A program made the position numbers and the translations under genes. From a virus: 34,278 nt of DNA. Positions 1 through 34,210 of the stretch are shown here, piece by piece. The stretch covers positions 862 through 35,139 of IMG/VR virus record IMGVR_UViG_3300002180_000287; one strand, written 5' to 3'. Every line of letters starts with the position of its first letter. Within the stretch, counting starts at the first letter, position 1. Below the pieces are notes generated by a model. It saw only the letters and a list, made by a program, of their open reading frames with translations, was not told where the DNA came from and did not search any database.

Positions 1-191
1 TGTTCCTCTGAGTTGAATGCTAAAAAATCCTGTTGGCCATGAATAATAGCGCCAGTCGTCACCATTTCAGTATAAAGAAGGGTGGTTGATGTTAGTAAAC
101 GATGGAAGTACCGACAGTGACGATCGGTCCAGTCCAGCATCGGGGCCACTGAAATTCGGTGGCCTTTATTTTTTCCTGCGTAGCGCGTCAT
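1..191 (-). CDS. dusA: tRNA-dihydrouridine synthase A, N-terminal part (cut by window edge)
   Basis: DusA reduces uridine to dihydrouridine in the D-loop of tRNAs, using FMN and NADPH. Reading the minus strand from ATG at 191 gives [20 protein letters not shown] and then [13 protein letters not shown], followed by [15 protein letters not shown]. These are hallmark DusA N-terminal motifs: the [12 protein letters not shown] flavin-site start and the TEMV/GAIIHG segment. An AGAGG ribosome site lies 5 nt upstream of the ATG. The rest of the gene continues beyond position 1. The bases from about 140 to 191, including start codon and ribosome site, are inferred to be phage-derived, because the core repeat is at 129-152 and the host's own 5' end is found at the far side of the prophage. 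The fused gene therefore looks functional, with a phage-supplied N-terminus. Confidence 0.93.
129..152. other. attachment core at left prophage end (attL side)
   Basis: This 24-bp stretch matches 34160-34183 at 20 of 24 positions. The longest perfect run is TCCAGCAT (133-140 and 34164-34171). Both copies encode the DusA motif SVAPMLDW on the minus strand and mostly differ at codon third positions, as expected for a phage attP that mimics the conserved gene. dusA is a known integration site for a specific family of tyrosine integrases. Strand exchange within this stretch is inferred. Confidence 0.85.
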
Positions 192-267
192 ACATACCTC
201 TTGCATTATCTTGCACAGTTTCCAAATTGCCGCGAATTGCTGTAAATTGCCGTATGTTTCTGTTCCC

Positions 268-287
268 GGTCACCCAATAGTCACCCA
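268..287 (+). repeat. integrase arm-type repeat, left copy
   Basis: GGTCACCCAATAGTCACCCA occurs here and again, perfectly, at 34103-34122. A further TAGTCACCCA lies at 34081-34090. Each 20-bp copy contains two GTCACCC elements. The repeats lie just inside both attachment cores, which is where arm-type integrase binding sites sit in tyrosine-recombinase phages. The left copy is immediately upstream of the integrase start, so it could also regulate int. The binding role is inferred from position. Confidence 0.65.
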
Positions 288-300
288 AAAAGGTTGGACA

Positions 301-1374
301 ATGGCAAGCTTAAGCATCGAAAAACGAAAACGAAAAACAGGTGAACCCACCTATCGCGCAATTGTTCGAGTCAAAAAAAACAAGAAGATTATACATCAGG
401 AAAGCAAAACCTTCAGAGAAGATAAACTCGCCAGGGCATGGGGTAAGCGTCGACAAAGTCTCATTGAGGCTGAGTTTGCTTCTGGCCAACCATCCAGGCG
501 AGCATGCTCTATTGGTGAAATGCTCGACCGCTACATTTCTGATGACCGGTTGTGGGATAAAGTTAAACGCTCCAGGCGCTACGTGGTCAACCTTTTGCGT
601 GACTCTATGCTGGCAAAAATTCAGACTGACGAGCTCAGCACTCAAAACCTGATTGACTACTGCAGGCTCAGAAACGGAGCCGGCGCATCACCTACTACTG
701 TTCGCATCGATATAAGTGTTCTTCGCTCAACAATGCGGATCATGTCTTCAGCACATTCGGTGGCCGTCGACCTCGGTGTTTTCGAGAACGCTACGCCCAT
801 ACTTTTTGAGTTGGGCCTTGTGTCCAAGTCTCAGCGGCGCAGCCGTCGGCCGACAGAGAGAGAGGTTGAACAGATAAGAAAAGAGCTGGCAAAGCGGCAA
901 AGTAAACGCCAGGCAAAAATTCCACTCACTGACATATTCGAGTTTTCTATATTGTCCTGCATGCGCATTGGTGAAGTCTGCAAGCTTCGATGGGATGACC
1001 TGGACGAAAGCAACAAAGCTGTCCTGGTGCGCGACCGAAAAGACCCACGCAAAAAAGAAGGCAACCACATGTGGTGCCCGTTGCTCGGCGGAGCATTTGA
1101 AATCGTTGCCAGACAACCAAGGAATGGTGAGCTGATATTCCCGTACCAATCACGATCAGTTACTGCAGCGTTTCAGCGTGTCCGGAAGAAGCTCGGCATC
1201 GAGGACCTTCGTTACCACGACCTTCGCAGAGAGGGGGCCAGCAGACTCTTCGAGCGAGGCTACTCTATTGATGAAGTAGCAAGAGTCACTGGGCACAGAA
1301 ACATCAATATGCTCTGGCAGGTTTATACAGAACTTTATCCAGGCAAGATGAGAGATTTATTCAAAGCAGATTGA
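301..1374 (+). CDS. int: dusA-type phage integrase (tyrosine recombinase)
   Basis: Site-specific recombinase expected to insert and excise the phage at dusA. The 357-aa protein has an N-terminal arm-binding region rich in lysine (KRKRKTGEPTYRAIVRVKK), a middle SAM-like core-binding region, and a C-terminal catalytic domain. Visible catalytic residues are R222 in SCMRIGEVCKLRW, H306 and R309 in YHDLRREGASRLF, H332 in VTGHRNINMLW, and the nucleophile Y342 in WQVYTELYP. ATG at 301 was chosen because it starts the MASLSIEKRKRK segment typical of such integrases. Longer in-frame starts run through the arm-repeat region. The gene lies next to attL and reads away from dusA. No excisionase was recognised with certainty; one of the small right-arm regulators may serve. 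Confidence 0.95.
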   Translation: MASLSIEKRKRKTGEPTYRAIVRVKKNKKIIHQESKTFREDKLARAWGKRRQSLIEAEFASGQPSRRACSIGEMLDRYISDDRLWDKVKRSRRYVVNLLRDSMLAKIQTDELSTQNLIDYCRLRNGAGASPTTVRIDISVLRSTMRIMSSAHSVAVDLGVFENATPILFELGLVSKSQRRSRRPTEREVEQIRKELAKRQSKRQAKIPLTDIFEFSILSCMRIGEVCKLRWDDLDESNKAVLVRDRKDPRKKEGNHMWCPLLGGAFEIVARQPRNGELIFPYQSRSVTAAFQRVRKKLGIEDLRYHDLRREGASRLFERGYSIDEVARVTGHRNINMLWQVYTELYPGKMRDLFKAD

Positions 1375-4787: not shown

Positions 4788-4831
4788 GCGGTCAGTCTAC
4801 AAGCCGCAAAGCCACGTCCTATGCACTTTCA

Positions 4832-4854
4832 GTTGTTTATTAGCCTTTTACAAC
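4832..4854. promoter_or_regulatory. late-promoter activator dyad between P and O
   Basis: GTTGT at 4832-4836 and ACAAC at 4850-4854 form a dyad with 13 nt between. The same element, with the core TTGTTTATTxxxCTTTTACAA, recurs at 14214-14236 and 21319-21341. P2 late promoters carry a related TGTTGT/ACAACA dyad centred near -55 that binds the Ogr zinc-finger activator. This copy lies in the divergent P/O gap and could serve both directions. Confidence 0.75.
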
Positions 4855-4928
4855 CCCAGTAAATTGACCGCACGCGCCTGGCTACTGACCATACCGATTA
4901 AAAACCCGAAACCGACAGGACCCTGACC

Positions 4929-11142: not shown

Positions 11143-11602
11143 TGGCGTTCTTGATCCATTCGTTGACCGCGTTCAGGCGCTACTGGTTAAGCTGGATGAC
11201 GGTCAACGTAAGGCGCTGGCCAGAGACATTAGCCGGCACCTGCGCGGCAGCCAGGCAAAACGCATACGTGAGAATAAGAACCCGGACGGCAGCCCCTACG
11301 AGGAACGCAAGCCCCAACCCGAAATGCGCAAGCGTAAAGGCAGCCTGCGCATGTTCCGCAAAATACACCGCACCAAAAACCTTAAGGCCAGAGCGTCATC
11401 TGATGGAGCCAGCGTGGGCTTTACCGGCTTTGCCAACCAGGTTGCACGAGTACACCAGTACGGTTTACGTGACAGGGTAAATGAACGAGGCCTGCAGCAT
11501 AAATACCCAGAGCGGGAACTGCTAGGCCTGACTGATGAAGAGCGAGACTACATAGAAGAAACGATGGTTAAGCACGTCGACGACGCGCTTAATGGTAATT
11601 AG
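11135..11602 (+). CDS. S: tail completion/virion morphogenesis protein (P2 gpS family)
   Basis: Protein of 155 aa matching P2 gpS in length (about 150) and place after R. The family pattern is clear: LARDISRHLRGSQAKRIREN, PDGSPYEERKP, a basic LRMFRKIHRTKNLK block, VGFTGFANQVARVHQYGLRD, and the PERELLGLTDEERDYIEE C-terminal motif. Its stop overlaps the stop of the convergent gene at 11599 by 4 nt. Confidence 0.93.
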   Translation: MVDGVLDPFVDRVQALLVKLDDGQRKALARDISRHLRGSQAKRIRENKNPDGSPYEERKPQPEMRKRKGSLRMFRKIHRTKNLKARASSDGASVGFTGFANQVARVHQYGLRDRVNERGLQHKYPERELLGLTDEERDYIEETMVKHVDDALNGN

Positions 11603-12123
11603 TATAAGTGCGTAACACCTGAAATGTAGAGCCTTGATTCATCACCCGAAAGCTCCCCAAGTCTCATGCATTCTGGCAGCCCTCCCTCAAAAACCATCCC
11701 CTGGCGCTCGAACTTATTTATCACCCGAATTTCTTTAATGAAGCTTCCTTCCCATAAATCAGAATCAGACCAGGCCGAACCACAGGCCGCGTGAATCATT
11801 GCTCGGTAAATCTGTGAGGTGACACGCTTTTCCTTTGAGACAATAGTAACTATCGAGTTTTTATAGCTTAATTCCGCAGGCTCCCACAAAGAAAGATTGT
11901 TTTTTAAGCTTACAACCATTTCAGCCGGATCATAGTTTTCAACTTCGGTCTCAACAAAAACGCTTTCATCAACTGCTGTTTTAGAAACACTCTTTAGGTC
12001 TTCTGAGACCGAAGCATCCGCGCCACTTGAGGTGCCTGATGCCGGGGACTCTTCAATAAAAATTTCCGTAAGAACGAAAATGATAACAACTACAGCAAGA
12101 AGCCACTGAGCAAACCTTTTCAT
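11599..12123 (-). CDS. membrane-anchored or secreted moron protein, function unknown
   Basis: Protein of 174 aa read against the late operon. ATG at 12123 was chosen because an AAGGTGG ribosome site lies 3 nt upstream and it opens a signal anchor, MKRFAQWLLAVVVIIFVLTE. A Ser/Ala-rich acidic linker follows (ESPASGTSSGADASVSEDLK), then a globular part with two cysteines (HAACGSAW and LPECMRLGE) that could form a disulfide in the periplasm. No family is recognised. A lone reversed gene inside a late operon is a classic lysogenic-conversion (moron) arrangement, and envelope roles such as superinfection exclusion are possible but unproven. The long upstream extension of the frame overlaps sequence of the opposite gene and is unlikely. 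Confidence 0.7.
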   Translation of the reverse strand: MKRFAQWLLAVVVIIFVLTEIFIEESPASGTSSGADASVSEDLKSVSKTAVDESVFVETEVENYDPAEMVVSLKNNLSLWEPAELSYKNSIVTIVSKEKRVTSQIYRAMIHAACGSAWSDSDLWEGSFIKEIRVINKFERQGMVFEGGLPECMRLGELSGDESRLYISGVTHLY

Positions 12124-12280
12124 ATTCCACCTTAAATAATCAGTTAATTGCGAACATACATCTTGCACAATGTCGTATTTATTTACAAACAACTTGTTAA
12201 AAAACAACCCACACCGTAAGGTTTTGCCGCGCGCAAAAATCTTTAAACCGCTAACCGGTTGGCTTAAATGGAGAACACTT

Positions 12281-12598
12281 ATGATGGAATGGAAAAAATT
12301 CCAGCCGGCAGACTTTACGGAACACGTAAACTGTGCAAGACTTATCTTAGCTGGCATAGACACCCAGCGATTGAGCAGGCGGATTAGACACCCGCAAGCT
12401 TTGAACCACAAAGGTGAAATAACAGAGCCCAATTCCCCACATTCAGCCGCCTGGCTGATGCGTACAGCAAGCACGCTGTTTTCGGGGGCATGGGTCGGGA
12501 GCCAAAGAATAAGCCCCCGTCTGTGCCTTTCCTTTGTGGGGCACTGTCTTGCGGCTACCCGATCCGCCTTTGTGCTAAAAAACACAAAGGTATCTACT
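12281..12598 (+). other. in-frame leader ORF with hairpins before the Icd/Ash-like gene
   Basis: The 12124-12598 gap is structured rather than empty. An ATG at 12281 with GGAG 7 nt upstream opens a frame continuous with the gene starting at 12599, beginning MMEWKKFQPADFTEHVNCAR. The stretch holds inverted repeats: CGGGGGC (12483-12489) with GCCCCCG (12513-12519), and CCTTTGTG (12567-12574) with CACAAAGG (12583-12590). The second hides the ribosome site of the 12599 start. Either the product is a longer protein of 162 aa or this is a translated leader that controls the short one. Confidence 0.4.
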
Positions 12599-12769
12599 AT
12601 GATTTACACCTTCATTATTGCCCAGCCGTGGCAAAAAATTGCGCAACTTAAGCGCGTTCGCACCGTCAGCGCCTATGGCCGCACCGAAGCCGAAGCTCGC
12701 CGAGCCTTTAAAGGCCTCCCCCTTGTGCTGAAAAGCCGCACTCCGGACAACCAGGAGGACGCAGCATGA
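12599..12769 (+). CDS. small Icd/Ash-like phage protein (host cell division inhibitor-like, tentative)
   Basis: Protein of 56 aa (MIYTFIIAQPWQKIAQLKRV and on). The pattern of a YTF hydrophobic start, a basic middle, a TEAEARRAF segment and a short PLVLKSR end resembles the C-terminal module of Icd-like/Ash-like proteins of P1 and P4-type phages (typically with SEREAR followed by LSFAGR). The resemblance is short and from memory, so the function is tentative. AAAGG lies 8 nt upstream but is inside a hairpin. The frame is open back to 12281, giving an alternative 162-aa product. The next gene overlaps its end by 4 nt. Confidence 0.5.
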   Translation: MIYTFIIAQPWQKIAQLKRVRTVSAYGRTEAEARRAFKGLPLVLKSRTPDNQEDAA

Positions 12770-13101
12770 GTAAGGCACCCATCATTAAACTGGATAACAG
12801 CCACCACGAACACGTTGTTGAGATATTCGAGGACAACACTCTAATATCAAATGACCTTGTTGTTCATGCTGGTAGGCTCTCTATTAATGCCACTTTTGAG
12901 CAATGGGTATTAAGCATCGATGCACTTTCGGTTGATTCGAATCATGAATACGGAAGTCTCAGCATTAACCATTATGGCGAATCCAAGCCCTTTTCAGTGT
13001 TCACCAATATCGTTCTTACGCTTGAAGAAGTCGATAAAATCCGCGAGGCGTTACCTACGCTGACATTCATTGACCGTCGCAAGGGGGTGCAACATGGCTA
13101 A
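12766..13101 (+). CDS. hypothetical protein of the S-V cassette
   Basis: Protein of 111 aa (MSKAPIIKLDNSHHEHVVEI), acidic and soluble with a predicted mixed beta content (SLSINHYGESKPFSVFTNIV). No family is recognised. It starts in a 4-nt overlap with the preceding gene and ends inside the start of the next, so it belongs to one translated unit running from 12599 to 14148. Confidence 0.7.
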   Translation: MSKAPIIKLDNSHHEHVVEIFEDNTLISNDLVVHAGRLSINATFEQWVLSIDALSVDSNHEYGSLSINHYGESKPFSVFTNIVLTLEEVDKIREALPTLTFIDRRKGVQHG

Positions 13102-13330
13102 ACAACAGGACATTTTGCACCGCCTGGCACAATTGGCGCACAAGTCACAAACCACCGTGGATGCCGCAAGAGAAATTGCAGCACTACGCCAGAAGTGCGC
13201 TTACCTGCAGTCGGCATTGGCCAGCACGGCGCACCCAAACACGCTGAAGTTTTTGGCGAACGCCCGTGCAATTGATGATCATAAAGTTGTCGACTTCAAT
13301 CAAGCCAGGGAGGTAACCCGCCATGTTTGA
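13094..13330 (+). CDS. hypothetical protein of the S-V cassette
   Basis: Protein of 78 aa starting MAKQQDILHRLAQLAHKSQT. ATG at 13094 was chosen because AAGGGGG lies 7 nt upstream. It is largely helical with heptad-like leucines and alanines (AREIAALRQKCAYLQSALAS), suggesting a short coiled coil. Function unknown. It overlaps both neighbours by 8 nt. Confidence 0.65.
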   Translation: MAKQQDILHRLAQLAHKSQTTVDAAREIAALRQKCAYLQSALASTAHPNTLKFLANARAIDDHKVVDFNQAREVTRHV

Positions 13331-13871
13331 TGCAGCAACTTACTGGCGTGAACGCCCGATTAAGAAGTTCGTCATTAAGCTGGTTGACGGTGACGAGTTT
13401 CAGAACCTGCTAGTCAGCGCGCCCAACGAAAGCCGTGCCAGAAAACAAGCACTGCAGAAGACGTTCCTGAGCAACGAGCATGCCGTAGTGAAAGAAATAC
13501 GGCTGGCCGAACCGTCAGACTTAGGCGTTATGCACGTTGAGGCTATGACTCTGCACGACCACGAGCACGACTGGTACCAGAACATAGCCAAAGAGACAGG
13601 TCTTAGCCTGGTTGAGTACGGTGAAGTGAATGGCACTCGCCATTTTTACCTTTGCTCGATACCAGCACACCGAAAGCTGAACGAGTGGATGGATGAACCG
13701 GGCGATGACGAGAACCCGGCGATTGCGAAAGAGCAGCTGCACTCAGCGCTTCGCGACTGCGTCAAAGCCATGCAAAAGGTACGAAGCTTTGAAGGCTCTG
13801 ACGAAGAGTTTTACAGCGCCTTACGCATGGCCGAATACCTAACACTGGAACAGGAGGTGGAGCATGCCTAG
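13323..13871 (+). CDS. hypothetical protein of the S-V cassette
   Basis: Protein of 182 aa (MFDAATYWRERPIKKFVIKL). The first 70 residues look like a small alpha/beta domain (KKFVIKLVDGDEFQNLLVSA, then SRARKQALQKTFL). A His-rich segment follows (MTLHDHEHDWYQNIA), then an acidic helical end. I recognise no family. It overlaps its neighbours by 8 nt on each side. Confidence 0.65.
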   Translation: MFDAATYWRERPIKKFVIKLVDGDEFQNLLVSAPNESRARKQALQKTFLSNEHAVVKEIRLAEPSDLGVMHVEAMTLHDHEHDWYQNIAKETGLSLVEYGEVNGTRHFYLCSIPAHRKLNEWMDEPGDDENPAIAKEQLHSALRDCVKAMQKVRSFEGSDEEFYSALRMAEYLTLEQEVEHA

Positions 13872-14148
13872 CGAAAGCAAGCAAGCCAACTGCGAAGTAA
13901 GCATTGAAGAGGTTGCAAAAATCGCAGAGCGCCTGAGTGTTGCGAACGACTCTTTGTTTGACGCAATAGCGGTTTCTGATGGCATGGCCGCCATTGTGGA
14001 AGGCTTTCGGGACAACAACGAGCCAGGCACAATTAGCCCGGCTCAGGTCTCTATGTTGCTAGAGTCATTACAGCAAAGACTATCAACCTCTCTGGTTGAT
14101 ATTATGCAGGCTCTAGGCGACGCCTCTGAGGCAATACCTTTCGAGTAA
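13864..14148 (+). CDS. hypothetical protein, last gene of the S-V cassette
   Basis: Protein of 94 aa (MPSESKQANCEVSIEEVAKI), acidic and predicted mostly helical (VAKIAERLSVANDSLFDAIA; VSMLLESLQQRLSTSLVDIM). An AGGTGG ribosome site precedes it. A terminator follows at once, so the cassette ends here, just before the V promoter. Function unknown. Confidence 0.65.
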   Translation: MPSESKQANCEVSIEEVAKIAERLSVANDSLFDAIAVSDGMAAIVEGFRDNNEPGTISPAQVSMLLESLQQRLSTSLVDIMQALGDASEAIPFE

Positions 14149-14184: not shown

Positions 14185-14213
14185 TTAGTCCCTCGCCAAC
14201 TCAATTACTTTCA

Positions 14214-14236
14214 GTTGTTTATTCTGCTTTTACAAC
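14214..14236 (+). promoter_or_regulatory. late-promoter activator dyad before V
   Basis: GTTGT (14214-14218) and ACAAC (14232-14236) are 13 nt apart. The 16 nt after the dyad (CGCACCCAATAGCCCA) are identical to those after the FI-operon dyad. A shared GCACACTTAG lies 36 nt from the ACAAC half in both and may contain the -10 region. The dyad centre is 56 nt from the V ATG. Confidence 0.78.
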
Positions 14237-14280
14237 CGCACCCAATAGCCCAAACCACAGCGCCTCGGCACACTTAGCGC

Positions 14281-15224: not shown

Positions 15225-16156
15225 GTCTATTTGAACTGATTGACATGAGCCAGGTGCCAGTGCCTGACGTTATCGAAAGGCCCAGCTTTGAGGAAAAGTT
15301 CTCGGAGCTAAAAGCTTTGGCCGTGTCACTTCACCCGGAGTCAGAAGCTACCCTTGAGCTTGAATCTGAGCCACTTACGAAACTGCTGCAGGCGTTCTCA
15401 TATAGAGAGCTTCACCTGATCGGCTTTTTCAACGACGGCACTCGGGCAAACATGCTGGCATCAGCATCAGGCAAAGACCTTGATGGCATTGCTTCACGAT
15501 ACAACATCACTCGCCTGGTTGTTCAGGAAGAAGATAATTCAACGACGCCACCAACGCCTGCCGTTATGGAGAGTGACGACGCCCTTCGCCGTCGCACCCA
15601 AATGGCATTTGATGGCCTGAACACCGCTGGCAGTAATGATGGCTACGTGTTCTTTGCGCTCGGTAGCGACGGCCGCGTTCTGGATGCTTACGCGAACAGT
15701 CCGGCACCTTGCGAAATGAATGTGTATTTACTGAGCCACGAAGGCGATGGCCAGCCCAGCCAAGACCTTATCGAAAAGGTGAGAGCAACGTTTGGCCTAA
15801 CGTCCGACGGCCTAAGCCAGCTACCAGAACCAAGCAAAGTCCGACCTCAAGGCGACCGTGTGCGCGTCCTCCCTGCCACGATTATTGAATACCAGGTTGA
15901 GGCGGAAGTATTTATTAAGCCAGGCCCCGATGCTGAGGTGGTTTTTTCTAAAGCGATGGCCGCACTGAACAAGCACATCGAGGACAATCACAAGCTGGGT
16001 AACGACATTACTCGCTCTGGTATTTATGCCGCGCTGCATCAGCCAGGCACGCACAATGTGCAGGTGACCAAACCTGTTTCAGACCTTGCGATTGACAAGA
16101 CCGAAGCACCACATTGCACAGCGGTAAACGTGACGCTAGGAGGCATCAGTGAGTGA
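15221..16156 (+). CDS. J: baseplate assembly protein (P2 gpJ family)
   Basis: Protein of 311 aa (P2 about 302), a wedge component of the baseplate. Typical segments are the early PDVIERPSFEEKFSELKAL, LLQAFSYRELHLIGFFNDGTRANML (read in parts), GKDLDGIASRYNITRLV, and DALRRRTQMAFDGLNTAGSN, where related proteins carry the RxR..LAPE/AGS motif. It begins in a 4-nt overlap with W and ends in an 8-nt overlap with I. Confidence 0.94.
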   Translation: MSLFELIDMSQVPVPDVIERPSFEEKFSELKALAVSLHPESEATLELESEPLTKLLQAFSYRELHLIGFFNDGTRANMLASASGKDLDGIASRYNITRLVVQEEDNSTTPPTPAVMESDDALRRRTQMAFDGLNTAGSNDGYVFFALGSDGRVLDAYANSPAPCEMNVYLLSHEGDGQPSQDLIEKVRATFGLTSDGLSQLPEPSKVRPQGDRVRVLPATIIEYQVEAEVFIKPGPDAEVVFSKAMAALNKHIEDNHKLGNDITRSGIYAALHQPGTHNVQVTKPVSDLAIDKTEAPHCTAVNVTLGGISE

Positions 16157-16892
16157 TTCGCTTTTACCGTCTAATGCGTCAAAGCTAGACCGCGCAATAG
16201 AAACGGTTATTGAGCACTGCACCCAGTTCCCCGTGGACGTTCGTGACCTATGGGACCCTTGGCGCTGCCCGTTTGAATTATTGCCCTGGTTAGCCTGGGC
16301 TTATTCCGTAGACAGCTGGAGCGAACACTGGCCAGAGCAAACCAAGCGCCGCGTCGTTGACAGTAGCTTTCAGGTTCACAAGCACAAAGCAACTCCGTTC
16401 GCCGTTCAGCGTGCACTCGATGCGCTGGGTATAAAGACCAACATTGTTGAATGGTGGGAGCAAGCCGGAACCGGAGAGCCCGGAACAATGAAGGTCCTAG
16501 CCCTGCTAAACGAAAATCTAACCGGCGACGCAGACGGTTTAATTAACGCCAACATGCTGCAGCTGGTAACAGAATCAATCAACGTGTCGAAGCGCGGCTC
16601 TATTCACTTTGACGTTGAGCTTGGCATTAGCTTGGAAGAGTCCATTGGCCTTGCCGCCGCCCCTTCGCCAAGCTACGGGCTGCACGACCCAGAATTTAAT
16701 GAGCAACCAGTTACCCCGGATGCACTGAGCGCCGCAACCGGCTTCTTTGCGGTTGACCACCGGGTAATTTGCGCGGACGACGACCTGAACTTTGGCAACC
16801 AAATGGAGCTCTCTGCAGACGCAGAAGCCCTACTGGCCGCTGGCGTACATCACCTACAACTTATTGATCACGATTTAACAGGAGTTGCTTAA
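16149..16892 (+). CDS. I: tail protein I (P2 gpI family)
   Basis: Protein of 247 aa, longer than P2 gpI (about 176). The conserved gpI core is at the N-terminus: LLPSNASKLDRAIETVIEHC, VRDLWDPWRCPFELLPWLAW, VDSWSEHWPEQTKRRVVDSS, KHKATPFAVQRALDALGI. The extra C-terminal part (after about residue 170) is unusual, and its middle resembles a small fibre-docking extension. GTG start at 16149 overlaps J. Confidence 0.93.
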   Translation: MSDSLLPSNASKLDRAIETVIEHCTQFPVDVRDLWDPWRCPFELLPWLAWAYSVDSWSEHWPEQTKRRVVDSSFQVHKHKATPFAVQRALDALGIKTNIVEWWEQAGTGEPGTMKVLALLNENLTGDADGLINANMLQLVTESINVSKRGSIHFDVELGISLEESIGLAAAPSPSYGLHDPEFNEQPVTPDALSAATGFFAVDHRVICADDDLNFGNQMELSADAEALLAAGVHHLQLIDHDLTGVA

Positions 16893-16893
16893 C

Positions 16894-17433
16894 ATGGCAC
16901 TGACTCTTCAATTCACCGAAGCCGGACTGGACGCCTGCATTGACGCCCAGGCAAAAGGAATAAAAGCGCCCATTACTCACATGGCGTTTGGTGACGCAGC
17001 TTACACACCAAGCAAAACACAAAGCCAGCTATCGAGCGAGAAAGAGCGCATCGAGATTAGCGACTGGCAGGACGGCAATAAAAACATCCGCATGGCCGGA
17101 ATTTTCGACGGAGAACTTGAGTATGCGATTCGCGAAATCGGTCTTTTCCTCGAGGACGGAACCTTGCTTGGCGTTTATTCAGCACCAGGCAGGACGCTTG
17201 GATATAGAACCCCTGCCGTAAAAGTTGTGCAGTGGTTCACACTCAACGTAGAGGCATTGCCGTCTGACAGTGTCACCGTGGTTGTGGGAGCTGAGAACCT
17301 TAACCTGATTTTAGATAAAGAGTTCATCGCCGACGGCGCTTCGTATTTACTACAGGGCGCCGCCGTCATTAAAAATGCTCACTGGAATATGAATCTAAGT
17401 GAGCGCATTCGTGAAATGGAGGGCTCCGCGTGA
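16894..17433 (+). CDS. H: tail fibre anchor, N-terminal collar domain only (gpH-like)
   Basis: Protein of 179 aa. ATG at 16894 was chosen because AGGAG lies 9 nt upstream; a TTG at 16885 is possible. The sequence matches the N-terminal phage tail-collar fibre domain: LTLQFTEAGLDACIDAQAKG, ITHMAFGDAAYTPSKTQSQL, REIGLFLEDGTLLGVYSAPG. P2 gpH is about 670 aa with a long shaft and receptor-binding tip. Here the protein stops after the anchor, and the DGR-diversified protein begins in a 4-nt overlap. The fibre has apparently been split, or its shaft replaced. Confidence 0.88.
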   Translation: MALTLQFTEAGLDACIDAQAKGIKAPITHMAFGDAAYTPSKTQSQLSSEKERIEISDWQDGNKNIRMAGIFDGELEYAIREIGLFLEDGTLLGVYSAPGRTLGYRTPAVKVVQWFTLNVEALPSDSVTVVVGAENLNLILDKEFIADGASYLLQGAAVIKNAHWNMNLSERIREMEGSA

Positions 17434-18659
17434 GTACTATTGCTGAAGAAATCCAAGCGCTAAAATCTGCCTCCGCAGAGCAAACAAGCGCATCGCAAAA
17501 TCTGGCACAAGAAGTGTCGGGCAAGATGGCTGACATTGACCAAAAGGTTGACCAGTCAATTGACCAGGTCGAACAATCCTACGACCAGAAAGCCAGCGAC
17601 TTAACCATCATTGCAACGGACGGTTACCGCAAAGCAATTGAGGACGCTTCAGGCGGACGCAATACGGTCGTTTATGATGCCCAGGGCAACCCTAACATCA
17701 TGGTTGTGGTGCCGCGCTTCAACATTGAAGACCTTGGACTGACAGACCTTGACTTAGGCACAGGCACGCACCCTGCCTTTCTAACTAACGGCGCCCCTCG
17801 CGGTGAAATCCTTGTAGGTAAATACCTGGCATCTTCTGCTGCCGGAGGCTCTGCTGTTGTTGGTGGCGCACAACCTCGCGTCAGCGTCGATTACGACCAG
17901 GCAAAACAGCTATGCTCAGACAAGGGACAAGGCTGGCACATGATGTCAATTCATGAGTGGGCTGCTGTCGCACTGTGGAGCATGGCGAATAGCACCGTCC
18001 CTCGGGGCAATACAAACTGGGGCCGAGCGCATGACGCAGTTCACGAAACCGCACGCCGCGCTGATGACGGCCAACCGGGCGACACCTCAGGCACCGGCCG
18101 CACCGACACAGGTAAAGGACCTGCAACTTGGAACCATGACCACAGTGAGTTCGGCATTGCTGACTTGGTCGGCAACTGCTGGGAGTGGTTAGACCAGATG
18201 AAGCTAGAAAACGGTCAAATTATAACCACCCTCGACAATGACCCAAGCATTGCGGAAGTCAACTGGCACAAGCACCCATCGTTCTTTGATTCCACATCAA
18301 ATGCAACAGAAGGCAGCAGCGTTGGAGACCCGGTACTAAACAACCAGGTAGTCAACCGTAACGGACCGCTAAACGACGACAGTCACGACTATGCCTATTC
18401 GTCGGTGTCAAACTGGGCTTCAATCACCAAAGATCCCAGCTACACACCTGTCGAATTATTGCGCAAATTACTGATTGAATCAGCGGTTACAAGCAACGCT
18501 CAGGGTGCTCTATACGTCCGGAACTACGGCGACCGCTTCCCGCTACGTGGCGGCTACTGGAGCCACGGCTCGGCTGCCGGCCTCGGGTCTCTGTACCTGA
18601 GTTACGCCCGGTCCGATTCGTACAGCGGCCTCGGTTTCCGTCCGGCTTTATTCCTGTAA
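17430..18659 (+). CDS. DGR variable protein: coiled coil plus C-type-lectin/FGE-like fold, tail tip adhesin
   Basis: Target protein of the diversity-generating retroelement, 409 aa. Residues about 3-60 are a coiled coil (EEIQALKSASAEQTSASQNL, then ADIDQKVDQSIDQVEQSYDQ), likely for trimerisation. The rest is a formylglycine-generating-enzyme-like C-type lectin domain: EILVGKYLAS, GWHMMSIHEWAAVALWSM, GNCWEWLDQM (248-257) and the C-terminal FPLRGGYW to GFRPALFL. The last 39 residues (369-407) are encoded by the variable repeat. Twelve residues differ from the template: 376, 378, 379, 382, 387, 389, 391, 392, 396, 398, 400 and 401. Place directly after H indicates a receptor-binding role (inferred). 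GTG start, with GGAGGG upstream. Confidence 0.95.
   Translation: MSTIAEEIQALKSASAEQTSASQNLAQEVSGKMADIDQKVDQSIDQVEQSYDQKASDLTIIATDGYRKAIEDASGGRNTVVYDAQGNPNIMVVVPRFNIEDLGLTDLDLGTGTHPAFLTNGAPRGEILVGKYLASSAAGGSAVVGGAQPRVSVDYDQAKQLCSDKGQGWHMMSIHEWAAVALWSMANSTVPRGNTNWGRAHDAVHETARRADDGQPGDTSGTGRTDTGKGPATWNHDHSEFGIADLVGNCWEWLDQMKLENGQIITTLDNDPSIAEVNWHKHPSFFDSTSNATEGSSVGDPVLNNQVVNRNGPLNDDSHDYAYSSVSNWASITKDPSYTPVELLRKLLIESAVTSNAQGALYVRNYGDRFPLRGGYWSHGSAAGLGSLYLSYARSDSYSGLGFRPALFL
18534..18647 (+). repeat. DGR variable repeat (VR)
   Basis: The 114 nt align without gaps to 19084-19197 (offset 550). There are 14 mismatches, each at a template adenine: 6 A to G, 4 A to T, 4 A to C. The other 90 non-adenine template positions are identical. 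The first 21 nt and the last 17 nt are unchanged. The adenine-free end (18631-18647, TCGGTTTCCGTCCGGCT) has the place and GC-rich character of the initiation-of-mutagenic-homing site. VR and TR diverge again from 18648. Confidence 0.97.
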
Positions 18660-18681
18660 CCTGTTGATTGTTTTTTGTACA

Positions 18682-18699
18682 GGCGCACGGTAGTGCGCC
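18682..18699 (+). promoter_or_regulatory. DGR target-recognition hairpin/cruciform with GGTA loop
   Basis: A perfect 7-bp stem, GGCGCAC (18682-18688) with GTGCGCC (18693-18699), closes a GGTA loop. It begins 35 nt past the end of VR and 23 nt past the stop codon of the variable protein. DGR targets such as Bordetella phage BPP-1 carry a similar hairpin with a GRNA tetraloop just downstream of VR, required for efficient homing. GGTA fits GRNA. A weaker overlapping repeat, CCTGTA (18653-18658) with TACAGG (18678-18683), also exists. Confidence 0.85.
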
Positions 18700-18721
18700 A
18701 TTAACTTAGCGAAGTAACAGA

Positions 18722-19081
18722 ATGTCAAAACCTCTGATAATTGAAGACAAGTGTCGTGAAATGATTATGTATGGATACGTAGCTCTGAAGCAGTTCCCGC
18801 GCTCAGAGAAGCATGGATTAGCAGCTGAGATACGAAGCTCAATGTGGAGTGTTCAGCGTTTAATTATCACCGCTTTGAAGCGTTATCATAAGAAGACCAC
18901 ACTCACAGAGCTTGATGTTGAGCTCGCAATTCTCAAGCGCCAGGTGCGCCTGGCCAAAGACTTGCGTTACATCGACCTCAAGAAGTATCGAGTATGGTCT
19001 GAAAGCCTGGTTGAAATCGGGCGCATGGTTGGCGGCTGGCTCCGCTCTGTCTATGAAAGCAAAAAGGCGGCGGCATTATGA
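18722..19081 (+). CDS. avd: DGR accessory variability determinant (Avd)
   Basis: Avd forms a barrel-shaped pentamer of four-helix bundles that binds the DGR reverse transcriptase and template RNA. The 119-aa protein is all-helical and strongly basic. It shows the family pattern: IIEDKCREMIMYGYVALKQFPRSEKHGLAAEIRSSMW (in part), LIITALKRYHKKTTLTELDVELAILKRQVRLAKD (in part), YRVWSESLVEIGRMVGGWLR. The length is near the usual 110-130. The stop codon TGA (19079-19081) overlaps the first ATG of the RT frame, and the template repeat begins 2 nt later. Confidence 0.95.
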   Translation: MSKPLIIEDKCREMIMYGYVALKQFPRSEKHGLAAEIRSSMWSVQRLIITALKRYHKKTTLTELDVELAILKRQVRLAKDLRYIDLKKYRVWSESLVEIGRMVGGWLRSVYESKKAAAL

Positions 19082-20340
19082 TGCGCTTCCCGCTACGTGG
19101 CGGCAACTGGAACAACGGCTCGAATGCCGGCCTCGGGTATCTGAACCTGAATAACGCCCGGTCCAATTCGAACAGCAACATCGGTTTCCGTCCGGCTCTT
19201 GATTCCGCCAGTAACACGCTGCCCAAGGGCGCGTGTCCGTGCAATTTTCAAAAGGATGCCGCAGCCTCGGCAAATGCCGAAACATACATTAAGCCTGTGG
19301 ATGCGTCTGCAGGCTGCCTTTTCGAGCAGATATATAACTTTGATAACTTGCTTAGCGCGGCCTACTCATGCAGGCAAGGTAAAGCCCACAAGCAATCAAC
19401 GCTAAAATTCTTCAATAAGCTCGAAGAAAATATAATTGCCCTGCAGAATGAACTTATGTGGGGAACTTACGAGTCATCACCCTACTATCAATTTTTTGTG
19501 TATGAGCCTAAGCGCCGACTGGTGTCTGCCCCCAACTTTCGCGACCGAGTTATTCACCGCTCTATTTACGACCGGCTCTACCATCTGTTTGACAAAACAT
19601 TTATAGACGACTCTTACGCTTGTCGAGTCAACAAAGGGACGCACAAAGGTGCAGACCGAGCCCAGCGATTCATCCAGAGAGTGGAGAACCGCCACGGCAA
19701 AGCTTATGCGTTGAAGGCTGACATCAGTAAATACTTCTCGAGCATCAATCACGACATACTGAAAGCCATGCTCGCGCAAAAAATCAAATGCCCACATACG
19801 CTGCAGCTGCTTTTTTACATCATTGATGCCAGTCCATCAGACGGTCCAGGCGTTGGCATCCCATTGGGCAACTTAACAAGCCAGCTTTTTGCGAACATTT
19901 ACCTGCACGAGCTAGACCGCTTTGTTAAACACGAATTAAAAGAGCGCTTCTACGTCAGATACATGGACGACTTTATTGTTATCCATCACGACAAGGCGCA
20001 TCTACACAAAATCCGAGTGAGAATCGAGGCCTACCTACTGCAGATTTTAAATCTACGCACGAATAAAAAGACGCAAGTGTTTCCTATTGCGGTAAAAAAT
20101 GGACGCTCGCTCGACTTCCTCGGCTATCGAATATATTCATCGCATCGGTTGCTTCGCAAGTGCAGTGTGAAGCGAATAAAAACCAAGCTTAAAAAATTCC
20201 GGAAGCAATTTGCTGCCGGCGAAATTTCCCTGCAGGAAATAAACCCTAAGCTGCAATCGTGGTTCGGCCATGCCAGCCACGCCAACACAGCTAACCTAAG
20301 AAACGCAATTTTCCAAAAACCGTTTAGGAGAGACTCATGA
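19078..20340 (+). CDS. DGR reverse transcriptase
   Basis: Copies TR RNA into adenine-mutagenised cDNA. Numbered from ATG 19078 (420 aa) the conserved domain starts near residue 79 (GCLFEQIYNFDNLL). Motifs are KRRLVSAPNFRDRVIHRSIY (motifs 1-2), ALKADISKYFSSINHDIL with D215 (motif A), GIPLGNLTSQLFANIYL (the SQ-containing motif 4 typical of DGR RTs), RYMDDFIVI with YMDD at 295-298, and LDFLGYRIYSSHRLL (motif 7). There is no maturase, endonuclease or retron features. The 19078 start overlaps the avd stop and would translate the whole TR. The next in-frame plausible start is GTG 19297 (347 aa). The stop overlaps the next gene (ATGA). Confidence 0.96.
   Translation: MMRFPLRGGNWNNGSNAGLGYLNLNNARSNSNSNIGFRPALDSASNTLPKGACPCNFQKDAAASANAETYIKPVDASAGCLFEQIYNFDNLLSAAYSCRQGKAHKQSTLKFFNKLEENIIALQNELMWGTYESSPYYQFFVYEPKRRLVSAPNFRDRVIHRSIYDRLYHLFDKTFIDDSYACRVNKGTHKGADRAQRFIQRVENRHGKAYALKADISKYFSSINHDILKAMLAQKIKCPHTLQLLFYIIDASPSDGPGVGIPLGNLTSQLFANIYLHELDRFVKHELKERFYVRYMDDFIVIHHDKAHLHKIRVRIEAYLLQILNLRTNKKTQVFPIAVKNGRSLDFLGYRIYSSHRLLRKCSVKRIKTKLKKFRKQFAAGEISLQEINPKLQSWFGHASHANTANLRNAIFQKPFRRDS
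19084..19197 (+). repeat. DGR template repeat (TR)
   Basis: Invariant 114-nt template copied by the RT into cDNA with errors at adenines. It contains 24 adenines, of which 14 are changed in the present VR. Read in the VR frame it has ten AAY (Asn) codons, and all ten encode another residue in VR. AAY codons can vary widely without producing stop codons. It begins directly after avd and lies inside the open frame of the RT, in the same phase as VR. Confidence 0.97.
19198..19296 (+). other. putative DGR spacer RNA (Sp) region between TR and RT domain
   Basis: These 99 nt separate the TR end from GTG 19297 and the conserved RT start (GCLFEQIYNFDNLL). In BPP-1 the stretch after TR is noncoding Sp RNA that folds and primes cDNA synthesis. 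Here it is open in the RT frame, but the peptide (DSASNTLPKGACPCNFQK) is unlike RT N-termini. A spacer role is inferred from place. Confidence 0.5.
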
Positions 20341-20879
20341 GTTTTCAATACATCTTCAAAGGTCAGGCACACACGAATACTGATCGCGAATACATGCTGA
20401 ACATTGGCATGGACACCGAACAGATTGAATCGGTTCTGCAGCAGCAGGAATACGAGCTGGCCACATCGATTGTAGGCAAGAACTACAGCACCATGACTGA
20501 CGCTGAAGTTGAGAAAGCCTGCCGAGACGCCATCGACGAAGCAGCCGGCAATGTTCGCATCGCCTACATTTCAAAAGGCTTGCTAGTTGAAGAAGAATAT
20601 CGACTGGCAAAAACTCAAGCCGAGAAATGGATTGCTGACGGCAAGCCAAATGAAGTGCCTGACGCCGTTCAATCTTGGGCTGACGCTGCAAACATGACGC
20701 CGGAAGAGGCGGCTGATGACATAGCGGCTACAGCGTTAAGCTGGGAAGGCGTTCTGGCTACCGTTCGTCAGGCGCGCTTATCAGGCAAAGCAGCGCTTAA
20801 TTCAGCAAGCTCACGCGCCGAACAGGTCACAGCTGCTGCTGAGCAAGTCGCGCTTATTAATGAGTTAATGCCGGCATAA
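20337..20879 (+). CDS. putative tail fibre assembly or fibre-associated protein
   Basis: Protein of 180 aa (MSFQYIFKGQAHTNTDREYM), start overlapping the RT stop by 4 nt. It is acidic and helical, with LATSIVGKNYSTMTDAEVEK, a central RLAKTQAEKWIADGKPNEVP and an Ala-rich C-terminus (ATVRQARLSGKAALNSASSR). P2 has the fibre assembly chaperone G at this position, and helical, alanine-rich sequence is compatible with that kind of role. I do not recognise a specific family, so the assignment rests on place. Confidence 0.55.
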   Translation: MSFQYIFKGQAHTNTDREYMLNIGMDTEQIESVLQQQEYELATSIVGKNYSTMTDAEVEKACRDAIDEAAGNVRIAYISKGLLVEEEYRLAKTQAEKWIADGKPNEVPDAVQSWADAANMTPEEAADDIAATALSWEGVLATVRQARLSGKAALNSASSRAEQVTAAAEQVALINELMPA

Positions 20880-21295: not shown

Positions 21296-21318
21296 GCGTG
21301 AAGTGTCACGCCTTTTTT
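21294..21318 (+). terminator. rho-independent terminator after the DGR/fibre segment
   Basis: An 8-bp stem, AGGCGTGA (21294-21301) with TCACGCCT (21306-21313), has a 4-nt loop and a run of six T (21313-21318). The stop codon of the amidase-like gene lies inside its 5' side. Confidence 0.88.
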
Positions 21319-21341
21319 GTTGTTTATTCTGCTTTTACAAC
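21319..21341 (+). promoter_or_regulatory. late-promoter activator dyad before FI
   Basis: GTTGT (21319-21323) and ACAAC (21337-21341), spacing 13, follow directly on the terminator T run. This is the third copy of the late-promoter element. Downstream sequence matches the V promoter for 16 nt, and again at GCACACTTAG (21373-21382). Confidence 0.78.
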
Positions 21342-21428
21342 CGCACCCAATAGCCCACACGCCCTGCCAAATGCACACTTAGCCTTGCAAATACCAAACT
21401 GTATTAGTCAACCGGACCGGAGATAATC

Positions 21429-29851: not shown

Positions 29852-32536
29852 ATGAACGTACAACTAAGAGAAGAGGTGGTAACACGCCTCCTGCGAGACT
29901 TTGACTTTAAAACAAACAACAAAGACTTTTTTCAGCAAGGCCGCTGCCCCAGTTGTGGCAAAAAAGAATTATATGCGCCGGCTGAAACCCCCTGGGTAGT
30001 TCGCTGCGGACGCATGAATAAATGCGCAGCCGAATACCACATCAAAGAATTATATCCTGAGCTTTTTGAATCCTGGTCTGATCGCTATAAGCCGACACCG
30101 AAAAGCCCGACTGCCTCAGCCGATGCGTATTTGCGCGACGGGCGCGGCTTTGATATTGCAAAACTCAAAGGCTGGTACAGCCAAGGCAGCTACTATTGCA
30201 CTGACCGCCAAATTGGTACCGCCACGGTTAAGTTTGAATTGCCTAATGGCTCGTCATGGGAGCGCTTCATTGATAAGCCTCAGCGCTTTGGCAAAATGAA
30301 AGCCAACTTTGTAGGCAAATACAAAGGTCACTGGTGGCAGCCACCAACGGGTATCCCGGAAGACACCAAAGAAATATGGTTAACCGAAGGTATATTTGAC
30401 GCTATATCCCTGATCCAATCCGGCATTACTGCAGTTAGCTTAATGAGCTGCAATAACTACCCAAGCACGGCGCTCGATGCGCTAAAAAAAGAATACCAAA
30501 AGCACGACCGTCAATTGCCTTGCCTGGTGTTTGCGCTTGACGATGGACCTGCCGGTGAATCATTCACGCGCAAGTTTGTCAACTACGCACGCAAAGCCGG
30601 CTTCCCGGCAACGGCAGCGCAGCCGCCAAAGGGCAAAGTAAAACTGGACTGGAACGAGTTGTTTCAGCGTGGCCGACTAACCCGAAAGCACTTAGAAGAA
30701 TACCGTTACCTGGGCAGCTTACTGATCGCGAAAAACGCGACAGAGAAAGCCCGGTTAATGCACCAGAAAACGCAGCAAAAAGAGTTCCCCTTCCGATTCG
30801 ACAACCGCCTTTTCTGGTTCAAGATTGACTACGACCGCTACGTAAAAGCAATGAACACTCTCGGTTGGGACGCGGAAGATGATAAGCAGGCCAGCGAAGC
30901 TGACATCGAGAATGCGCTTAAAGAGTCGTCTTCAGTTGTTGAATTGGCAGCATGTTACCCAGAAGCCCTTTATTACCAGGCACACGAAGTAACAGACGAA
31001 AGCTGGTACTACTTCCGCGTCAGTTTCCCGCACGACAACGCTCCTATAAAGAACACGTTCAGCGGTGGCCAGTTATCCAGTGCCAGTGAATTTAAAAAGC
31101 GCTTAATGAGCGTTGCGCCTGGTGCAGTATGGACCGGCTCAAGTGGTCAACTTGACCGGCTAATGAAACAGCAGCTTTACGACATTAAGCGGGTGCAGGG
31201 TGTCGACTTCGTTGGTTATTCACGAGAATACGGCATTTACATACTGGGTGACCTTGCCGTTAAAGACGGTGTTACCAAGCCACTTAATGACGAAGACTTT
31301 TTTGACTTCGGAAAACTCAACATTAAGACGCTGAACAAGTCAGTTTCACTTAATGTTAATCCGGACTTAAAAGAGCTCAACCCTGAGTGGGAGCAAAACC
31401 TTTACACCGCCTTTAAAGAGAATGGCTTAATTTCACTGGCTTTCTGGTTCGGCTCGCTATACGCAGAGCAGGTTCGGGCGTTTGATAAAACCTACCCTTT
31501 CCTTGAGCTTATTGGTGAACCGGGCTCTGGTAAGTCAACGCTAATAGAATTTATGTGGCGCCTTTGTGGCCGCCCGGATGAAGAAGGTTTTGACCCGGTC
31601 AAGTCGACTGCAGCGGCTCGCGCTCGTCGGTTGTCCCAAGTAGCCAACTTGCCGGTTGTTCTCATTGAGGGTGACCGCGGCGACGCCAAAGACATGAAGC
31701 AAAGAAGCTTCGATTGGGACGAATTGAAGACTGCTTACAACGGCCGCTCACCGCGAAGCCGAGGTGTAAAGAATGCTGGCAACGAAACCTATGAGCCACC
31801 ATTCAGGGGCACAATAGTTATATCGCAAAACGCAGAGGTCCAGGCTTCACAAGCTGTGCTCGAGCGTATCATTCACATTAAAACAGACCGCAAAGGCCAC
31901 AACTCCGAAACAAGACAAGCAGCAAGAGCGCTCGAAACCATGCCGATTGAACAGGTTTCCGGTTTTATTCTTAAGTGCGCATTAGCCGAGAAACGAGTGC
32001 TCGAGCTTTACAAAGAGAAGTTACCACATTACGAAGCCATGCTTGCTGAAAACGACGACCTGAAAACCCACCGGATAATAAAGAACCACGCGCAAATAAT
32101 GGCAATGCTTGATTGCCTGGCGTTAGTCACTGGCTTTAAAGGCAGTCAAATTGAAGGCGCAAAAGAGAAGTTGGTTGAACTCGCGCTGCAGCGTCAGCAA
32201 GCCATAAGCGCAGACCACCCAATGGTTCAACAATTTTGGGACGTGTTCGACTACCTGGAAGAGAAGTTTGAGTGGCCTGTTGTTAACCACTCGAAAGACG
32301 ACGGTTTAATAGCTGTTAATTTGAATCACATGGAAGAGGAAGCCGGCGAGTTCCGCCAAAAACTTCCTCCACTTCCTGATCTTAAAAAGCACCTAAAAGC
32401 CTGTAAGTCGCGCAAGTTCCTTGAGGTTAAGACCGTGCGCAGCGCCGTGAACGAACATTTTAATAAAGGCAGCAACATAGCCGGACCAAGAAAGCCGGCC
32501 AGCGTTAAGTGCTGGGTATTCGAAAGGGAGCGTTAA
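29852..32536 (+). CDS. TOPRIM primase-helicase, P4-alpha-like replication protein
   Basis: Large replication enzyme of 894 aa. A zinc-binding primase module has C32, C35, C52 and C58 (GRCPSCGKKELY; VVRCGRMNKCAAEYH). A TOPRIM domain follows: IWLTEGIFDAISLIQSG with E179 and D183, and CLVFALDDGPAGES with D230/D231. The helicase part holds Walker A GEPGSGKST (555-563) and a Walker B-like VVLIEGDRGD (E606, D608). The C-terminus (from about 800) may bind DNA. A GGAGGG ribosome site precedes ATG 29852. It replaces the rolling-circle gpA expected in P2-like phages and may act at the GGTAAC iteron block. Confidence 0.92.
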   Translation: MNVQLREEVVTRLLRDFDFKTNNKDFFQQGRCPSCGKKELYAPAETPWVVRCGRMNKCAAEYHIKELYPELFESWSDRYKPTPKSPTASADAYLRDGRGFDIAKLKGWYSQGSYYCTDRQIGTATVKFELPNGSSWERFIDKPQRFGKMKANFVGKYKGHWWQPPTGIPEDTKEIWLTEGIFDAISLIQSGITAVSLMSCNNYPSTALDALKKEYQKHDRQLPCLVFALDDGPAGESFTRKFVNYARKAGFPATAAQPPKGKVKLDWNELFQRGRLTRKHLEEYRYLGSLLIAKNATEKARLMHQKTQQKEFPFRFDNRLFWFKIDYDRYVKAMNTLGWDAEDDKQASEADIENALKESSSVVELAACYPEALYYQAHEVTDESWYYFRVSFPHDNAPIKNTFSGGQLSSASEFKKRLMSVAPGAVWTGSSGQLDRLMKQQLYDIKRVQGVDFVGYSREYGIYILGDLAVKDGVTKPLNDEDFFDFGKLNIKTLNKSVSLNVNPDLKELNPEWEQNLYTAFKENGLISLAFWFGSLYAEQVRAFDKTYPFLELIGEPGSGKSTLIEFMWRLCGRPDEEGFDPVKSTAAARARRLSQVANLPVVLIEGDRGDAKDMKQRSFDWDELKTAYNGRSPRSRGVKNAGNETYEPPFRGTIVISQNAEVQASQAVLERIIHIKTDRKGHNSETRQAARALETMPIEQVSGFILKCALAEKRVLELYKEKLPHYEAMLAENDDLKTHRIIKNHAQIMAMLDCLALVTGFKGSQIEGAKEKLVELALQRQQAISADHPMVQQFWDVFDYLEEKFEWPVVNHSKDDGLIAVNLNHMEEEAGEFRQKLPPLPDLKKHLKACKSRKFLEVKTVRSAVNEHFNKGSNIAGPRKPASVKCWVFERER

Positions 32537-32538
32537 CA

Positions 32539-32796
32539 GTGAATACAGTGCTTTTGCTATTGGCCAAGTACGAACGTTCGCCAGTGCCTCTCGGCGAAGT
32601 GTGCGAAGAGTTCTTTGGCATAAAGGAAAAACAAGCAGCCATGTTGGCCGCCGCGCAATCGCTGCCGGTACCAACATTCAAGCTTCGAGACTCAGAGCGT
32701 GCAAAGTGGATGGTGGACTTGCGCGACTTAGCCGAACACATCGATAACAAACGCCGCCAGGCGTTAAACGATTACACAGAAGTAAACGCAATATAA
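32539..32796 (+). CDS. PrtN-family transcription activator-like protein
   Basis: Protein of 85 aa from GTG 32539, with AAAGGGAG 8 nt upstream. The pattern MNTVLLLLAKYERSPVPLGE, VCEEFFGIKEKQAAMLAAAQ, LPVPTFKLRDSERAKWMVDL and RDLAEHIDNKRRQAL matches the pyocin activator PrtN family (PrtN drives pyocin genes in Pseudomonas). Prophages of many gammaproteobacteria carry such genes. The target here is not known. Confidence 0.8.
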   Translation: MNTVLLLLAKYERSPVPLGEVCEEFFGIKEKQAAMLAAAQSLPVPTFKLRDSERAKWMVDLRDLAEHIDNKRRQALNDYTEVNAI

Positions 32797-34083: not shown

Positions 34084-34122
34084 TCACCCACGAAATTTAA
34101 AGGGTCACCCAATAGTCACCCA
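34081..34122 (+). repeat. integrase arm-type repeats, right copies
   Basis: TAGTCACCCA occurs at 34081-34090 and again at 34113-34122, the latter inside a perfect 20-bp copy (34103-34122) of the left-end repeat at 268-287. Five GTCACCC elements in total flank the prophage termini. Their role as integrase arm sites is inferred from place. Confidence 0.65.
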
Positions 34123-34156: not shown

Positions 34157-34210
34157 TTACCAATCCAGCATAGGCGCTACTGAGAGCTTGTAAGAATATG
34201 GTACAGCCAA
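34157..34210 (-). pseudogene. dusA: displaced 5' fragment of host dusA
   Basis: On the minus strand, TTG at 34210 (GGTGG about 7 nt upstream) opens [17 protein letters not shown] and stops at once with TAA. This is the original start of the host DusA, cut off by integration. No in-frame ATG lies upstream before a stop; GTG at 34219 is an alternative start. Bases 34211-34278 are host DNA upstream of dusA, with no further gene seen. Confidence 0.8.
34160..34183. other. attachment core at right prophage end (attR side)
   Basis: Partner of 129-152 with 20 of 24 bases identical. On the minus strand it encodes SVAPMLDW of the native host dusA, after which the frame meets TAA at 34157-34159 in phage DNA. 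Confidence 0.85.

Follow-up and report, generated by a model that had tools for sequence, protein, structure and literature searches.

The VHML/VP58.5/ACA subgroup of phage DGRs

The Vibrio phages VP58.5 and VHML (Vhmlvirus) possess P2-like tail genes, yet they are telomere (linear-plasmid) phages. Together with the Pseudoalteromonas ACA phages, they carry the closest relatives of the diversity-generating retroelement (DGR) that we analysed in a stretch of viral DNA of 34,278 nucleotides (the window), and by sequence comparison this DGR is a member of the already described VHML/VP58.5/ACA subgroup. It resembles the VP58.5 and VHML elements in its target (72-73% amino acid identity), avd gene, ATGA overlap, TR-containing RT ORF (RT 71% identical to that of VP58.5), hairpin position and downstream orf, but differs from both in belonging to an integrated P2-like prophage at dusA, and from VHML in a 1-nt insertion that the latter carries between TR and RT. 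ACA1, ACA2 and proACA1-A (Peduoviridae) are likewise P2-like and located in dusA, with a split tail fibre and anti-receptor and an RT at 68% identity, and translation of TR as an N-terminal extension of RT was previously noted for the ACA phages (PMC10612066); they differ from the window in host genus, tail-gene order and target identity (57-58%). The more distant DGR of BPP-1 (mtd-avd-TR-brt) shares component order, Avd, RT (41%), GRNA hairpin and adenine mutagenesis, whereas its TR and spacer precede brt and lie outside the brt frame, brt starting 144 nt after the annotated TR. TR and the 5' end of the RT ORF also overlap in structural group 3 of DiGReF (PMC3521204), but this group is defined by annotation and includes 3' overlaps, and frame, start codons and spacer structure are not analysed in the available part of its description (PMC3521204).

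An Idiomarina P2-like prophage with mapped att sites and an empty-site genome now joins the few VHML/ACA-type phage DGRs. The window very probably holds a complete DGR of the VHML/VP58.5/ACA subtype that has been active in recent times, located in the tail-fibre slot of a P2-like prophage of ~34 kb inserted at the 5' end of dusA in Idiomarina. The TR/VR pattern, the components, the spacer covariation, the in-frame architecture and the natural VR variation are read from sequence; the biochemical steps of retrohoming would follow by homology with the BPP-1 DGR (PMC3240598, PMC12875486).

Components of the DGR

The target gene (17430..18659, + strand, as are all features of the DGR) encodes an FGE/C-type-lectin-like tail protein, a putative anti-receptor with VR at its C-terminus, that matches PF03781 (E=6e-6) and PHROG 2889 (E=1.6e-152), and whose profile matches PDB 5vf4 (E=2e-87). 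The predicted fold of this protein was set aside at a pLDDT of 35. Upstream lie the gene for a gpH-like tail-fibre N-terminal/attachment protein (16885..17433; PF12571, PHROG 3737 tail fiber) and, directly before it, a P2 gpI homologue (16149-16892). Downstream, avd (18722..19081; PF22296) scores above the NCBIfam equivalog cut-off of NF033474 (111 versus 80 bits) and also matches PHROG 3206 ('Avd protein of DGR'). It is followed by an RT ORF of 420 aa (19078..20340) that harbours the YMDD and LTSQ motifs and whose first ~80 codons are TR and spacer; a profile of this RT together with its relatives gives a match to the RT in PDB 8ub7 (E=1.9e-128). A last gene of undescribed function (20337..20879), linked to the DGR by an ATGA overlap with the RT stop, is conserved only in its N-terminal ~45-80 aa and occupies the same position in relatives, with homologues in ACA1, VHML, VP58.5, p0908, pMR24a and phiARM81mr.

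A GC-rich hairpin with a 4-nt GRNA loop 3' of VR is a criterion for DGRs (PMC3240598), and a target-site hairpin with a 7-bp stem and a GGTA loop (GGCGCAC-GGTA-GTGCGCC, 18682..18699) begins 34 nt 3' of VR. Relatives carry a GRNA-loop hairpin in the same register after VR, with different stem sequences, and none after TR in those compared. The complete DGR that had been proposed in a preliminary description of this DNA, with Avd, a DGR-type RT and a GRNA hairpin, was confirmed by family searches and a repeat search, as TR/VR pattern, Avd, RT, target and hairpin were each found. Neither Rfam families nor tRNA genes were detected in the window.

Adenine-restricted differences between TR and VR

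VR (18534..18647) and TR (19084..19197, in frame with RT as codons 3-40 of its ORF) align without gaps over 114 bp, with homology ending abruptly on both sides. All 14 mismatches fall on adenines of TR, of which there are 24, and comprise six A>G, four A>T and four A>C changes, while the non-adenine TR positions are identical in VR (90/90), a restriction with a hypergeometric probability of 6e-12 from position alone. All ten Asn codons are altered by the substitutions, as are a Tyr codon and an Ile codon. Every count put forward in the preliminary description was recomputed and holds, whereas its figure of 4^24 variants stands as a ceiling for nucleotide sequences and not as a measure of protein diversity. 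A repeat search of the 37,416-base record returned this TR/VR pair as the sole one of its kind and no additional VRs, and the avd-TR stretch was without a match in 243 of the 247 genomes of the host's family that were searched.

Natural variation of VR among relatives

An IMG/VR metagenome contig (L004) that is ~90% identical to the window carries an identical TR (114/114), yet its VR differs from that of the window at 11 positions, all on TR adenines (11/11). Ahead of VR, the target genes of the two differ at 130 of 1104 sites, and 113 of the 121 changed codons are synonymous. Divergence between window and L004 is low from ~18630 to ~19340 and ~10% on either side, which could reflect recombination or constraint. 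A comparable picture emerges from p0908 (L017), a Vibrio plasmid, and L031, a MAG contig labelled Kiloniella. Between the VR end and the RT end they share 1695 bases without a difference, whereas their VRs show 18 differences, 17 of them on TR adenines; pAMBAS45 and p0908 on the one hand and the ACA trio on the other present a like pattern, near-identical DGRs with different VRs. The target gene 5' of VR differs at 110 of 526 sites (ungapped count) between L031:1-526 and L017:2917-3442, and such target divergence beside a constant DGR may point to an exchange of target modules.

The comparison of VRs among relatives, which the preliminary description had offered as a way to refute the DGR, thus yielded differences almost only on TR adenines. 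A tally over 88 loci (1129 of 1168 mismatches at adenines) is biased, as its pairs were selected for adenine bias, and we left it out and confined the evidence on VR variation to the clade and L004 comparisons. From this natural variation, the DGR of the prophage apparently was active recently, and the comparisons reveal cassettes acting in nature, with the same template and enzyme genes accompanied by different VRs in different hosts. One close metagenome contig (L008, 1-1400) has lost avd, TR and most of RT but retained the VR hairpin, the deletion junction lying within a shared 6-bp AAAACC microhomology. Its VR differs from the window TR at 5 non-adenine positions, a drift to be expected if TR no longer serves to reset VR.

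A structured spacer RNA downstream of TR

TR is followed by a spacer of ~120 nt that is in frame with RT and has the covariation of a structured RNA (19189..19318, overlapping the last 9 nt of TR). Its first helix is formed by the end of TR plus CTT, paired with AAGGATGC. Across 11 sequences, 96.5% of the cells paired, and double-sided changes occurred in 42 cells; shuffles gave 13.9 such cells, and slid controls no more than 7. A covariance model (R1) built from the 11 clade sequences located a spacer directly after TR in 17 further DGRs spanning several phyla, 15 of which do not have an open TR-RT frame. These 17 spacers again exhibited strong covariation, though their alignment leans to model R1. 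R1 did not match the spacer of BPP-1, for which a structure and the recruitment of RT-Avd are reported (PMC12875486). Because R1 matches after TR in 17 distant and mostly unfused DGRs, the spacer RNA looks like a general part of DGRs that, in the VHML/ACA clade, was taken up into the coding sequence of RT. The covariance model thereby finds this element across several phyla.

TR and spacer within the RT reading frame

The RT ORF extends from 19078, where its ATG overlaps the avd stop as ATGA, with TR and spacer in frame inside it, an arrangement that the preliminary description had overlooked; conserved RT homology starts only at ~19297-19318 (RT residue ~75-81). TR is in frame and open into RT in 20 of the 70 DGR loci that have TR just upstream of RT, including all VHML-type loci other than VHML (14/14), where the spacer measures 120 nt (123 in one). 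Even proACA1-A and a Photobacterium plasmid, whose RTs bear lesions further on, keep the TR-RT frame open. In the RT tree the window falls into an 11-row clade with VHML/ACA-type elements (support 100/99); over the whole tree the fused TR-RT state requires 6 changes and hence does not define a single clade. An extra base in the TR-RT spacer of VHML itself (L013:4106-4236) breaks the frame that all its close relatives keep, and the RT match of VHML is split.

Several features of the spacer bear on whether the frame is maintained. Its RT frame contains no stops in 401 codons, compared to 9 and 40 in the other two, and the product of the shuffle probabilities over six separated clade members is 6e-6, while the spacer of the window taken alone is open in 31% of shuffles. 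Among ten clade members a single spacer indel occurs, and it is 3 nt long. Canonical DGRs, which mostly have longer TR-RT gaps than VHML-type loci, have, in 42 of 50 cases, a start codon lying 12-27 nt ahead of the RT core (ATG in 28 of 50). An ATG at this place is absent from the ten distinct clade members compared; VP58.5, ACA1 and p0908 have no ATG, GTG or TTG between TR and the RT core, nor does VP58.5 have one inside TR. The ATG before TR that overlaps the avd stop is kept across the VHML/ACA clade, and we infer that the RT extension made of TR and spacer is translated from it.

At the protein level the extension is predicted to be unstructured (pLDDT ~25), and we dropped the idea of a folded domain. 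Second codon positions change more in the spacer (0.264) than in RT (~0.16), so protein-level constraint on the spacer codons is weak. As the extension is predicted to be unstructured, constraint more likely acts on the RNA and the open frame than on a folded domain.

It could be argued instead that RT starts at an internal GTG (19297..19299, +) and that the open frame is a by-product, TR being open since VR must be and the spacer being open by chance. This GTG lies 21 nt before the RT core, that is at the start-codon place of most canonical DGRs, and it is retained in the window and L004; the predicted disorder of the extension and the open spacer in 31% of window shuffles are also compatible with such a start, whereas a Shine-Dalgarno sequence was not seen at the GTG. 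We nevertheless regard an internal start as unlikely, since the frame is kept in 14 of 14 VHML-type loci other than VHML, three of the relatives (VP58.5, ACA1, p0908) offer no other start between TR and the RT core, the sole spacer indel among ten is 3 nt long and the ATGA overlap is conserved. Translation from the ATG at the avd stop would thus include TR and spacer. We found no published description of an embedded structured spacer or of a clade-wide loss of the RT's own ATG, and the clade-wide embedding of TR and structured spacer in RT is what merits the attention of specialists.

Model for retrohoming and alternatives

The gene order is target, avd, TR, spacer, RT and orf, probably within one late operon. 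By analogy with BPP-1, Avd and RT would bind the structured spacer that directly follows TR and synthesise cDNA across TR, with random bases opposite the template adenines. With the VR 3' end and the GGTA-loop hairpin as guides, the cDNA would then take the place of VR at the 3' end of the anti-receptor gene, which would diversify about 12 codons of the tail-tip protein. With TR and spacer as the first ~80 RT codons, one RNA stretch would act as template, RT-recruiting structure and coding sequence, making this clade a clean case of a single RNA segment in all three capacities, and one in which the separation of translation and template use becomes testable. A speculative reading, which we hold with little confidence, is that ribosomes and the Avd-RT complex compete in this clade for one obligatory coding/template RNA. 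In an equally tentative extension, translation would make RT and block template use until rising RT/Avd stops translation and starts mutagenesis, or new RT might copy its own mRNA in cis.

Other explanations of the locus fare less well. The presence of two similar repeats 550 bp apart might suggest a tandem duplication followed by point mutation or gene conversion with no retroelement involved, but differences that are adenine-only and one-directional (p=6e-12), next to RT and Avd genes, leave such an origin with practically no probability, and a plain duplication or gene conversion was ruled out by the adenine-only differences. It is also quite improbable that the DGR in this prophage has recently lost its activity, with genes intact but silent. 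The frameshifts in the relatives VHML and proACA1-A (PMC10612066) and the loss of the cassette in L008 would speak for such inactivation; in the window, however, all ORFs are intact with catalytic motifs present, the 90 non-adenine positions match and VR differs from that of a relative. As to the role of the diversified protein, we infer a change of host range from where its gene lies, from published work on the ACA phages (PMC10612066) and from the natural variation of VR among relatives. The ACA anti-receptor is oddly abundant in mass spectra and prophage-type (PMC10612066), which could fit a function outside receptor binding, such as decorating the virion or acting on the lysogen surface. 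This we judge improbable, as the target gene comes right after gpI and the gpH-like N-terminus and is homologous to described phage anti-receptors.

The prophage, its integration site and host

The window corresponds almost exactly to a single integrated P2-like prophage. Its genes follow a P2-like order and comprise those for head and lysis (portal and inverted terminase, scaffold, capsid, small terminase, lysis proteins), those for the tail (tail completion, V, W, J, I, the gpH-like fibre N-terminus, sheath, tape measure, U and D, matching V/W/J/I/H and T/U/D of the P2 set) and those for a repressor, a primase and SSB. The tyrosine integrase ORF (211..1374, +; PF00589, E=1.5e-23; PHROG integrase) probably starts at an internal ATG at 301. 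An attL-like site inside host dusA (129..152, +) and an attR-like site (34160..34183, +) were delimited by a 24-bp flank overlap relative to an empty site. To the left lies host dusA and to the right a Zur/Fur-type regulator and an M1-type peptidase, all named by inspection of translations. In an Idiomarina genome (G251, L121; the genus of Idiomarina sp. ATCH4) the dusA DNA is 99% identical and the site uninterrupted, its two halves mapping to both window sides with the 24-base overlap, while the capsid gene has no match in this genome. This overlap delimits an element of ~34.0 kb that sits at the 5' end of dusA, and from these sequences its host is an Idiomarina, a marine bacterium. The P2-like prophage with a contractile tail and a DGR in the tail-fibre slot, as initially described, is therefore borne out by gene-family matches and the integration site. 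Elements with dusA-specific integration are a described family (PMC4482086), and ACA1 is likewise inserted at the dusA 5' end (PMC10612066).

Inside the att sites, near the prophage ends, an exact 20-bp repeat (GGTCACCCAATAGTCACCCA, at 268-287 and 34103-34122) possibly represents integrase arm-binding sites. A 47-bp element with a GTTGT...ACAAC dyad occurs three times (4827-4873, 14209-14255, 21314-21360), ahead of the divergent head operons, of the baseplate V operon and of the sheath operon; the copies are probably activator-dependent late promoters, by analogy with P2. Between the tail-completion and baseplate genes lies a cargo region (11599-14148) whose ORFs on the plus strand match nothing in Pfam, PHROG or PADLOC, and whose minus-strand ORF (11599-12585) matches PHROG 3807 at its C-terminus. 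Finally, a small protein encoded at 32509-32796 scores above the Pfam cut-off for the pyocin activator PrtN (E=5e-19).
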